This document shows positions 1,508 to 4,233 of a stretch of DNA of 64,000 bases, piece after piece. The stretch's first letter is position 1, and every line of letters begins with the position of its first letter. The DNA is from Phaeobacter sp. G2 (GTDB lineage Bacteria; Pseudomonadota; Alphaproteobacteria; Rhodobacterales; Rhodobacteraceae): contig CP104100.1 in the NCBI GenBank assembly GCA_025163595.1, forward strand, positions 1,860,001-1,924,000, read 5' to 3'. A program made the translations under genes and the position numbers. The notes under the pieces were generated by a model that did not search any database, was not told the DNA's origin, and was given only the letters and a program-made list of their open reading frames with translations.

Positions 1508-1550
1508 AAAAAACGGCGGTACCCAGGGAGGAGGAGGGGGTACCGCCGTT
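1508..1550 (-). terminator. Rho-independent terminator formed by the last CCUCCUCCC hairpin
   Basis: The perfect 13 bp stem (1550-1538 / 1524-1512, loop 1537-1525) runs on the minus strand straight into six consecutive T residues (1513-1508). It should end the ccaF1-sRNA transcript, so the fourth motif-bearing hairpin doubles as the terminator. Confidence 0.8.
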
Positions 1551-1694
1551 CATGACAACATCAGGACCAAGGGAGGAGGAGATCCGGATGCATTCTGTTC
1601 CGGCTTAGCCGGTGTTAGGGTGCGGTGACATCAGGGAGGAGGAGGATGTCACCGCGTAGGACAGGCCCTTTAGGGAGGAGGAGAAAAGAGCCTG
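1508..1694 (-). ncRNA. CcsR / cuckoo-type small RNA array: four hairpins with CCUCCUCCC loops
   Basis: Read on the minus strand, four adjacent stem-loops each show the motif CUCCUCCUCCC in the loop while the stem sequences differ. Hairpin 1: 1694-1685 with 1671-1662 (10 bp, one G-U). Hairpin 2: 1655-1645 with 1632-1622 (perfect 11 bp). Hairpin 3: 1590-1583 with 1566-1559 (8 bp, one mismatch). Hairpin 4: 1550-1538 with 1524-1512 (perfect 13 bp) plus a U-run. Hairpins 1-2 are 6 nt apart and 3-4 are 8 nt apart, but the two pairs are separated by 31 nt carrying a small stem (CCGGC 1600-1604 / GCCGG 1608-1612). This suggests two two-hairpin RNAs. The array starts 7 nt after the DUF1127 stop codon. 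In Rhodobacter sphaeroides the stress-induced CcsR RNAs are co-transcribed with, and matured from, the mRNA of the DUF1127 protein CcaF1. Family assignment is from loop motif, architecture and neighbour; expression is inferred. Confidence 0.88.
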
Positions 1695-1701
1695 ATCTCT
1701 A

Positions 1702-1920
1702 TTAGTTGTTTTCGTAGGCCGCCTGATAAGCGACACGTTTGATCATCGAGCGGTTCAGACCCAGATCGGCAAGATCGCGACCCGAAAGCTCGCAGAGCTC
1801 ATTGTAGGTCTCGCGGTACAAGCGATAACGCGCGAATTTTGTGCTCAACGCGTCGAACCAGGCTGTGGGCAGGATCGAGAATACAGACTTAGGTGTTGCG
1901 ATTTGGTTTACAGCGGCCAT
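1702..1920 (-). CDS. ccaF1: DUF1127 small protein, CcaF1-like
   Basis: 72-residue protein. The C-terminal half carries the DUF1127 signature (YNELCELSGRDLADLGLNRS). Short DUF1127 proteins are common in alphaproteobacteria. The R. sphaeroides member CcaF1 is an RNA-binding protein that helps mature the CcsR RNAs encoded behind it and affects RNA turnover. Here the gene is likewise followed by CCUCCUCCC-loop hairpins, so the same role is inferred from synteny. Start ATG at 1920 has a GAGGA element about 9 nt upstream on the minus strand. The CcsR locus of R. sphaeroides is RpoHI/HII-dependent, but I could not find a convincing RpoH promoter upstream. Family is firm; the symbol is by analogy. 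Confidence 0.88.
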   Translation of the reverse strand: MAAVNQIATPKSVFSILPTAWFDALSTKFARYRLYRETYNELCELSGRDLADLGLNRSMIKRVAYQAAYENN

Positions 1921-3436: not shown

Positions 3437-3561
3437 AGGTCAGGTCTGAAAGGGTGGGGTGTGAATGGAATTGGTCTGATTCTAAAAGTCTCGCCTTAAA
3501 CGCCTAGCGGAAACCGTAAATACACAACCTTTGATTGTTTTCGGCGGTTTGTTCGTTGTCG

Positions 3562-3585
3562 TGGGAAATCATGGGACATTTGGGA
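3562..3585 (+). promoter_or_regulatory. Candidate MraZ-type box: three TGGGA repeats
   Basis: TGGGA occurs at 3562-3566, 3572-3576 and 3581-3585, giving spacers of 5 and 4 nt. MraZ of E. coli binds three TGGGN repeats with 5-nt spacers upstream of its own gene. Here the array is about 650 bp upstream of mraZ. The match is by pattern only. Confidence 0.45.
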
Positions 3586-3679
3586 TTTTATGGTCTGCCT
3601 TGGCAATAGGGCAGCGCTGCTGACTCGGAAAGTCAGGTGAATCGATGCGAATCGCGGCGCGAGTCTCGGCCGATTCAAA

Positions 3680-3700
3680 TTATCCACAAAGTTACACACA
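3680..3700 (+). promoter_or_regulatory. Perfect DnaA box and a near-match in tandem
   Basis: TTATCCACA at 3680-3688 matches the DnaA consensus TTATNCACA exactly. TTACACACA at 3692-3700 matches with one change, in the same orientation and 12 bp apart. They sit at the left border of the AT-rich stretch upstream of mraZ. Confidence 0.5.
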
Positions 3701-3728
3701 GGACATGGGTGGAACATTGCGGGAACTG

Positions 3729-3743
3729 TTAATCTGCTGTTAA
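3729..3743 (+). promoter_or_regulatory. CtrA-type site TTAA-N7-TTAA
   Basis: TTAA at 3729-3732 and TTAA at 3740-3743 are separated by exactly 7 nt, the full-site consensus of the alphaproteobacterial response regulator CtrA. It lies between the DnaA boxes and the second TGGGN array. Binding is inferred from sequence only. Confidence 0.5.
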
Positions 3744-3759
3744 TAGATCGGTCTCGCTT

Positions 3760-3784
3760 TGGGAATTCATGGGTCGCAATGGCC
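3760..3784 (+). promoter_or_regulatory. Candidate MraZ-binding array, 10-bp period
   Basis: TGGGA (3760-3764), TGGGT (3770-3774) and a degenerate TGGCC (3780-3784) follow each other with exact 5-nt spacers, the geometry known for the E. coli MraZ binding region. It lies directly downstream of the CtrA-type site and about 450 bp upstream of the mraZ start. Confidence 0.5.
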
Positions 3785-4122
3785 CGTTTTTGGCGACTTT
3801 TTTTTGACTACTAGATATGGTGCTTGTATCGCAATGAATCACTATTTGTGCTCAAAAATCCTGAATATGGTTAACTGGATATTGCTCATTTATGATACTG
3901 AGGATCCTTTTGCGGTGTCTTTTGTGAATTGTTGCTTGTCAGACCATGAATTCCCATAGTATCCCTTTCTTATCGGATGCGGCGGAGAGCATATAGGGGC
4001 ACCAAAGACCCCAGCTCATAATAATAAGCAGGTTCATACAGGCCTTCACTGCATCCGAACAATGAGAGATCCGGCGCGCGGGCGAGCAGACATCCCCCCA
4101 GGTGGCGCGCGCAGTCGGACAC

Positions 4123-4180
4123 CCCGCTAAGCGGGAATTAGGAGGCGAGTTGATCAGTGGCAGCAGATCAGCTCGCCTTC
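4123..4180 (+). other. mraZ leader hairpins
   Basis: CCCGC 4123-4127 / GCGGG 4131-4135 is a small stem. It is followed by a long stem GGCGAGTTGATC 4144-4155 / GATCAGCTCGCC 4166-4177 (one G-U pair, extendable by about three pairs) with a 10-nt loop. There is no U-run behind it, so it looks like a 5'-leader structure about 55 nt upstream of mraZ rather than a simple terminator. Confidence 0.55.
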
Positions 4181-4233
4181 CTTAGTTTCTGGGGCAGAAA
4201 ACGCGCCAAAGAGCGCATGTTGAGGGCAAGATT

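Follow-up and report, generated by a model that had tools for sequence, protein, structure and literature searches.

A CcsR/cuckoo-type small RNA operon of Phaeobacter with a conserved promoter carrying candidate PhaR and LysR-type regulator sites

Results

A DUF1127 gene and four hairpins on one strand

The window considered throughout is a stretch of 64,000 nucleotides from Phaeobacter sp. G2. Its minus strand carries a gene for a 72-aa, CcaF1-like protein (1702–1920), whose assignment to DUF1127 in an earlier note, made from the bare sequence, is borne out by Pfam (PF06568, E 2.6e-11). Seven nucleotides past the stop codon, as the same note had described, begins the first of four minus-strand hairpins (1662–1694, 1622–1655, 1558–1591 and 1511–1551), which differ in their stems, all expose CUCCUCCUCCC (with CTCCTCCTCCC in every loop) and close with a run of six U (1508–1513, minus) overlapping the end of the last stem; both the sequence and the fold agree with this arrangement, and the last hairpin probably doubles as a terminator. 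The spacing had been given as 6, 31 and 8 nt; the first value stands, whereas the core-stem gaps found here are 6, 30 and 6 nt, so that the other two differ slightly. The small stem proposed between the two hairpin pairs (1600–1612, minus) is present in the fold, and its four aligned pairs hold in 8–10 of the 10 rows of a genus alignment. A scan of the minus strand for consensus promoters and terminators returned nothing.

The DUF1127 gene is one of six DUF1127 stretches in the genome, and CCTCCTCCC is present only at this one of the six loci (1.5-kb flanks). Among 80 named Rhodobacteraceae operon loci, collected via relatives of the DUF1127 protein, 76 contain an mrp-like gene and 42 a uvrD-like one within flanks of up to 2.5 kb, which marks the genomic site as conserved. 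Two further features of the neighborhood were noticed: a long G+C-rich inverted repeat directly after the uvrD-like gene (885–935), by eye perhaps a terminator, and a long leader before mraZ (3480–4233; MraZ by NCBIfam). The sRNA UpsM of R. sphaeroides is reported to be made from the dcw leader (PMC8625941).

Stability and conservation of the hairpins

For the entire 3′ UTR the folding energy is −86 kcal/mol, far past its shuffled counterparts (−58.8 ± 4.2; z −6.5), 0 of 200 of which reach −86. Taken singly, hairpins 1, 2 and 4 have z-scores of −2.6, −7.5 and −7.3, and hairpin 3 is weak, reaching only z −1.2 when the small stem is folded with it, with 22 of 200 shuffles folding as well. Within the genus (ten genomes), loops are almost invariant and stems drift slightly. 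Conservation of the stems as base pairs is accordingly visible in part: 7 of the 53 predicted pairs show a double change that keeps the pair, 32 are invariant and hence uninformative, and 6 fail to pair in one or two of the ten rows.

On both strands of the 4.96-Mb genome, CCTCCTCCC occurs 37 times (reversed control, 31), and because there are only 37 genome-wide, four within 160 nt of one strand are not chance. Of these 37 sites, only the operon, a hairpin pair on contig C3 and a leader hairpin (L038), both described below, were judged to form stable loop hairpins. The 33 sites outside the operon, of which 32 were viewed after one repeated context had been dropped, were also considered as targets and rejected: three have GGGAGGAGG 4–8 nt ahead of an ATG that opens a convincing frame (genes labeled by judgement as LivF-like, RidA-like and SDR-like), which is too few and too generic.

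Membership in the CcsR/cuckoo (CIN1) family

At the Rfam gathering threshold, nothing was returned for the window. Below it, the CcsR1 model RF02791 (gathering score 65.3) matches the minus strand exactly twice, each time over its full length (model positions 1–83 of 83): once across hairpins 1662–1694 and 1622–1655 (CcsR unit 1, 1617–1699; 39.9 bits, E 3.7e-8) and once across hairpins 1558–1591 and 1511–1551 (CcsR unit 2, 1508–1595; 34.3 bits, E 1.6e-6), the E-values coming from an 801-base search. The covariance model thus gives two complete matches at scores short of gathering, and each covers one hairpin pair, in line with the earlier reading of two two-hairpin units in place of the four of R. 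sphaeroides. Cereibacter ovatus (L181), which is related to R. sphaeroides, has eight hairpins by the same folding rule, the expected four units, and these score 83.8, 48.1, 45.0 and 40.4 bits with CcsR1, three of the four likewise below the gathering score. RF02344 (ar14) also matches 1553–1700 (E 3.4e-7, below its gathering score). Weak matches to RF01066 (6C) and to mir-72 in Rfam were set aside as chance or as an effect of the two promoter sites described below being inverted repeats.

The locus furthermore shows adjacent CCUCCUCCC-loop hairpins with variable stems and a DUF1127 gene directly upstream in the same orientation, as is typical of CcsR/cuckoo loci. By a folding rule with stems of at least 5 pairs, which makes the counts approximate, the gene is followed by 4 to 16 hairpins in 79 of the 80 named Rhodobacteraceae operons and by a single hairpin in the remaining one (L172). 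Two full-length RF02791 matches below the gathering score, on DUF1127-linked hairpins, point to a CcsR/cuckoo (CIN1) operon with two CcsR units; with the conserved genomic site, they make it almost certain that the locus is a CcsR-type operon, as first proposed, and the RNA operon itself belongs to an already known family. It could be objected that the repeats are chance or a CT-rich artefact that yields no transcript. Against the fold beyond shuffles, the double-sided changes, the Rfam matches and the family-wide conservation, we consider such an artefact vanishingly improbable.

A conserved promoter with two overlapping candidate sites

Upstream of the gene, ATTGTGCACATGCAGCA (1992–2008, minus) contains a −35-like TTG (2005–2007) and a second TGC/GCA element, and is followed by a −10-like CTATTT (1981–1986, minus) whose TAT begins 22 nt past the TTG; the transcription start is one we infer. 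Promoters of RpoHI/RpoHII are reported to have TTG at −35 and TAT at −12 (PMC10673084). A palindrome, TGCTGCATAGCAGAA (2024–2038, minus), lies 31 nt from the TTG and 118 nt upstream of the DUF1127 start codon. It is PhaR-site-like, since PMC12542648 cites CTGC-N3-GCAG as the site determined for PhaR in R. sphaeroides, and is overlapped by TGCAAATGCTGCAT (2031–2044, minus), a TGCR-N6-GCAT motif of the LysR-type (LsrB/VtlR-like) kind. In the form TGCA-N6-GCAT this motif occurs twice in the window, at 2031–2044 (site 1, overlapping the palindrome) and at 1991–2004 (site 2), the second element also fitting TGCR-N6-GCAT. Moreover, the two promoter sites (1989–2041) are an inverted repeat of each other (ATGCAGCATTT at 1989–1999, AAATGCTGCAT at 2031–2041), so that one protein may bind both. 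The conserved non-genic stretch in the genus alignment reads ACCCATGCAAATGCTGCATAGCAGAA...GGGATTGTGCA..TGCAGCATT in the window, and the pattern ATTGTGCNNNYGCAGCA has exactly two places in the genome, the operon promoter and contig C3.

An exact copy of the extended palindrome precedes 44 of the 80 named operons, and 72 have it if one mismatch is allowed; the corresponding figures for 3384 control windows from other parts of the same loci are 17 and 21. Anchoring succeeded at 78 of the 80 loci: the palindrome stands 31 nt from the TTG at 67 of these, 30 nt at 10 and 23 nt at one. The genome of Phaeobacter sp. G2 holds the extended palindrome, TKCTGCNNNGCAGMA, in nine places (reversed control, 0), a count that is descriptive and not a test because the 15-base pattern was settled after several sites were known. 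Three of the nine lie upstream of the three stable CCUCCUCCC hairpin loci; of the others, two precede a phasin-like gene (a label by judgement, NCBIfam having given none), one lies beside phaC and one inside an open reading frame. The palindrome also lies ~25 nt before ccr (crotonyl-CoA reductase) and ~170 nt before the presumed start of urtA (the ccr/urtA sites are G000:C1:903518 and 1607858, L144/L146). These last two positions raise the possibility of a wider PhaR regulon of carbon and nitrogen genes.

Promoter sites and the presence of PhaR across genomes

PhaR is present in the genome of Phaeobacter sp. G2 (TIGR01848; PF07879), and searches of two genome sets found it in 78 of 80 and in 387 of 395. 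Eight of the 395 family genomes are without a PhaR match; seven of these have a DUF1127 match and five have the hairpin operon. In the five PhaR-less operons, 4, 4, 6, 6 and 5 of the 8 positions of the palindrome arms differ, whereas at most one position differs in 87 of the 96 operons that could be anchored among 100 others. The PhaR check covered 71 of these 100, with a match in all but L175. A palindrome with at most one mismatch is carried by 62 of 70 confirmed PhaR-bearing genomes versus 0 of 5 PhaR-less ones (Fisher 7e-5), and the second element, ATTGTGCNNNYGCAGCA with at most two mismatches, by 68 of 70 operons from PhaR-bearing genomes versus 0 of 5 (Fisher 1.2e-6); both tests go by genome, and the five PhaR-less genomes represent only three genera, uncorrected for kinship. 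Extended palindromes are likewise fewer per genome without PhaR (mean 1.1 in the 8 PhaR-less genomes versus 4.7 in 27 PhaR-bearing ones chosen for similar size; one-sided p 3e-4).

PhaR was checked in 50 of the 80 named genomes, deliberately including all eight with two or more mismatches, a choice that disfavors the PhaR reading. The comparison with 62 of 70 omits L023, L031 and L033 (fewer than two motifs), L175 (no PhaR found) and L152, L154 and L171 (the same genomes as L028, L027 and L021); the comparison of arm positions also omits L200, whose contig is as long as that of L029, and keeps L175. The palindrome in the promoter thus goes with the presence of PhaR across genomes, with four exceptions: L175, a metagenome-assembled genome of completeness not given, has no PhaR match and yet an exact palindrome, and L174, L192 and L223 have PhaR and decayed palindrome arms.

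The LysR-type motif behaves differently from the palindrome. TGCR-N6-GCAT is found in 99 of 104 operon promoters (a number that counts four genomes twice), including all five PhaR-less ones, versus 62 of 2645 control windows. That it outlasts the palindrome in PhaR-less genomes speaks against taking the box for a PhaR site only, with the LysR-type motif a by-product of TGC-rich sequence; the match to the R. sphaeroides site (as cited in PMC12542648) and the presence of PhaR in nearly all genomes searched would suit such an explanation, which we nevertheless hold to be improbable.

The main rival to a composite of PhaR and LysR-type sites is a purely LysR-type one, in which the box is only a double site for one tetramer, with recognition at 2031–2044 and activation at 1991–2004, and the likeness to a PhaR site is coincidental. 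The frequency of the motif in PhaR-bearing and PhaR-less promoters alike and the inverted repeat of sites 1 and 2 fit this account, as do known regulators. In B. melitensis, VtlR is reported to act predominantly as an activator of three DUF1127 genes and the sRNA AbcR2, with the motif CAATGCAGCCATGCA (PMC12595884), and in rhizobia LsrB is reported to activate the cuckoo-type RNA NfeR1 via TGCA-N6-GCAT at −72 to −60, with NtrC as its repressor (PMC10746234). The family form of the palindrome right half and its flank, TGCATGGCAGCATTG, is one base from the reverse complement of the published VtlR motif (three bases for the form in the window); since the second element fits the LysR-type motif as well, one LysR-type protein could bind both sites. 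Among four three-hairpin phage copies looked at (described below), L426 and L452 furthermore carry TGCR-N6-GCAT without the palindrome, and L416 and L437 carry neither. A double LysR-type site alone, however, leaves unexplained why all five PhaR-less operons have lost the arms and site 2 but kept site 1, and why the same extended palindrome stands before phasin-like, phaC and ccr genes. The published VtlR box, GCAT-N3-TG-N3-T (PMC7486931), also has TG where these operons read AG or GG (AG in the window). On these grounds we regard a purely LysR-type box as unlikely.

Two overlapping regulators, in contrast, explain both patterns, the LysR-type site being kept with or without PhaR and the palindrome arms and second element going with PhaR. 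We infer two overlapping promoter sites, recognized by a VtlR/LsrB-like regulator and by PhaR, respectively. PhaR probably binds directly at the promoter palindrome, and binding of a LysR-type regulator at the promoter is equally probable.

Stand-alone copies on contig C3, plasmids and phage contigs

A second hairpin pair, free of DUF1127, lies on the 156-kb contig C3 (138849–138897, minus) with the same palindrome and promoter, and constitutes a stand-alone two-hairpin cuckoo gene (L067 1834–1918 = G000:C3:138833–138917, minus). Roseobacter plasmids hold relatives of this cassette: matches came from 21 plasmid records, 14 of which are classed as mobilizable. None of the 21 best plasmid places overlaps a gene listed in PLSDB, whose table omits RNA genes, so that the copies may be annotated in the original records. 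In 13 of 16 copies (15 fetched and our own, three of them near-identical) the box is present with 0–2 mismatches 31 nt before the promoter element, and it is not kept at that spacing in L311, L315 and L317. Plasmid contexts range from a ParB/strawberry-notch segment to type IV secretion genes and pcaF, and the fetched plasmid stretches list no DUF1127 product.

Three IMG/VR contigs carry a similar cassette by tail-tube genes (L350 3479, L351 13701 and L352 3935). Its palindrome is exact in L351, one off in L352 and three off in the aligned stretch of L350 (CGCCGCATAGCGGCA). Direct folding gives two hairpins in each (z −4.6 to −5.6), the second with a loop of only UCCUCCC, and it is because of this shortened loop that a rule-based search for CTCCTC-loop hairpin pairs missed them; we read the cassette as a cuckoo-like gene borne by phage. 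L351, the only one of the three scored against Rfam, matches CcsR1 at 29.9 bits (E 0.0024). Separately, 41 of 78 IMG/VR contigs matching a two-loop pattern (L388–L465) have three CCUCCUCCC hairpins in a row (for example L416 7518–7638 and L426 4477–4596); two such copies that were scored exceed the gathering score of ar14 and lie beside phage replication (helicase) genes. Searches with the operon DNA among plasmids, with the C3 cassette among phages and with the L351 cassette among phages and plasmids gave no match, and the DUF1127 protein has no confirmed relative among viral contigs.

A terminator-like CCUCCUCCC-loop hairpin with the extended palindrome upstream was also seen in a leader between two genes of the Phaeobacter genome (L038 ~1501–1667, minus; G000:C1:553444–553610). 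We take the flanking genes to be NasS/NrtA-like; in NCBIfam they gave only sub-cutoff SsuA-family matches.

Discussion

A model for the operon

The explanation towards which we lean as a whole is that of a CcsR/cuckoo operon whose anti-Shine-Dalgarno RNAs are expressed from an RpoH-like promoter under a LysR-type and PhaR operator. One transcript would encode the CcaF1-like DUF1127 protein and carry two CcsR-type small RNAs in its 3′ UTR, and by analogy RNase E would cut it with the aid of the DUF1127 protein. Processing by RNase E and CcaF1, with effects on C1 metabolism and pyruvate dehydrogenase, is reported for R. sphaeroides (PMC10253847, PMC8625941, PMC8307010), and a role of the DUF1127 protein at the present RNAs is proposed by analogy to CcaF1 (PMC10253847). 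RNAs of the CcsR/cuckoo family are typically induced by stress, and this operon of a marine group would likewise be of the stress type. The CCUCCUCCC loops resemble the anti-Shine-Dalgarno end of 16S rRNA and, again by analogy, would pair with purine-rich ribosome-binding sites, lowering translation of transport and metabolic mRNAs. Such pairing is likely in our judgement, as pairing of the NfeR1 loops with ntrB and translation starts has been reported (PMC10746234). Alternatively, Shine-Dalgarno pairing may play no part, the main task of the hairpins being to sequester the DUF1127 protein or Hfq as a decoy, or to stabilize the mRNA at its 3′ end; the array, with 4 to 16 hairpins in all but one of the 80 operons, varies in size as a titrating decoy might. 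Loops that hardly change in the genus while stems drift, together with the reported pairing of the related NfeR1, make a decoy or stabilizer an improbable main function.

Control of the operon would be exerted at a composite operator directly upstream of the RpoH-like promoter: a LysR-type motif (VtlR/LsrB-like, probably activating) overlapped by the PhaR palindrome, with the second TGC/GCA element between −35 and −10 as a further part. PhaR, the sensor of polyhydroxybutyrate (PHB), would repress the operon when PHB is lacking, excluding the LysR-type activator from the overlapping operator, and would be released as PHB accumulates and titrates it.

If PhaR controls the operon, storage-carbon status would feed directly into an mRNA-pairing RNA, closing a regulatory loop. 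Overlapping LysR-type and PhaR sites, if true, would show how control of one conserved RNA can follow nitrogen status in rhizobia and stored carbon in Rhodobacteraceae, and the copies on plasmids and phage contigs point to mobile elements acting on host ribosome-binding sites through the common loop motif. More speculatively, and with rather less than even confidence, we propose that the cuckoo RNAs of Rhodobacteraceae are a translation-damping output of the PHB store, in which PhaR and a LysR-type activator on an overlapping operator replace the rhizobial NtrC/LsrB pair, and that mobilizable plasmids and a tailed phage have picked up a cassette of ~160 bp (operator, RpoH-like promoter, two hairpins and terminator), which they carry as a mobile means of regulating translation in the host.

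Comparison with known systems

The closest system is CcsR1–4/CcaF1 of R. sphaeroides (RF02791; PMC10253847, PMC8625941, PMC8307010), which has in common with the Phaeobacter locus the DUF1127 gene, two-hairpin CCUCCUCCC units, a terminator and an RpoH-like promoter; mrp-like and uvrD-like neighbors are common to the window and the relative Cereibacter ovatus (L181). It differs in having four units where Phaeobacter has two, and PhaR and LysR-type sites go unmentioned in the portions of this literature compared here. Cuckoo RNAs/CIN1 (Reinkensmeier and Giegerich 2015, via PMC4504443 and PMC10253847) are likewise described with a conserved loop and an association with DUF1127, with 2–4 hairpins compared to up to 16 in relatives of the window operon. 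In the literature covered here, we found no paper linking PhaR to CcsR1, CcaF1, RSP_6037 or cuckoo RNA; the defining papers (Reinkensmeier 2015, Billenkamp 2015) or the CcaF1 paper of 2021 may already report the features of the promoter or the copies on plasmids and phage contigs.

PhaR-type palindromes are shared with the PhaR-regulated genes of alphaproteobacteria, as summarized in PMC12542648 and PMC7143759. According to the same sources, the S. meliloti phaP1 and phaP2 promoters have the palindrome in two copies flanking the −35, and the sRNA MmgR is repressed by PhaR/AniA but belongs to another RNA family (alpha-r8). The alpha-r14/NfeR1 RNA of Sinorhizobium (RF02344; PMC10746234) has CCUCCUCCC loops and a LysR-type TGCA-N6-GCAT upstream of its −35 as well; it differs in its three hairpins, its separate sRNA gene, its sigma-70 promoter and its repression by NtrC, and the excerpted account does not mention a PhaR palindrome. 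Finally, in the VtlR/LsrB regulon (PMC12595884, PMC7486931, PMC10746234) a LysR-type regulator is reported to activate DUF1127 genes and anti-Shine-Dalgarno sRNAs; there, the protein genes and sRNAs are described as separate targets, whereas in Phaeobacter the protein and the RNAs lie in one operon.
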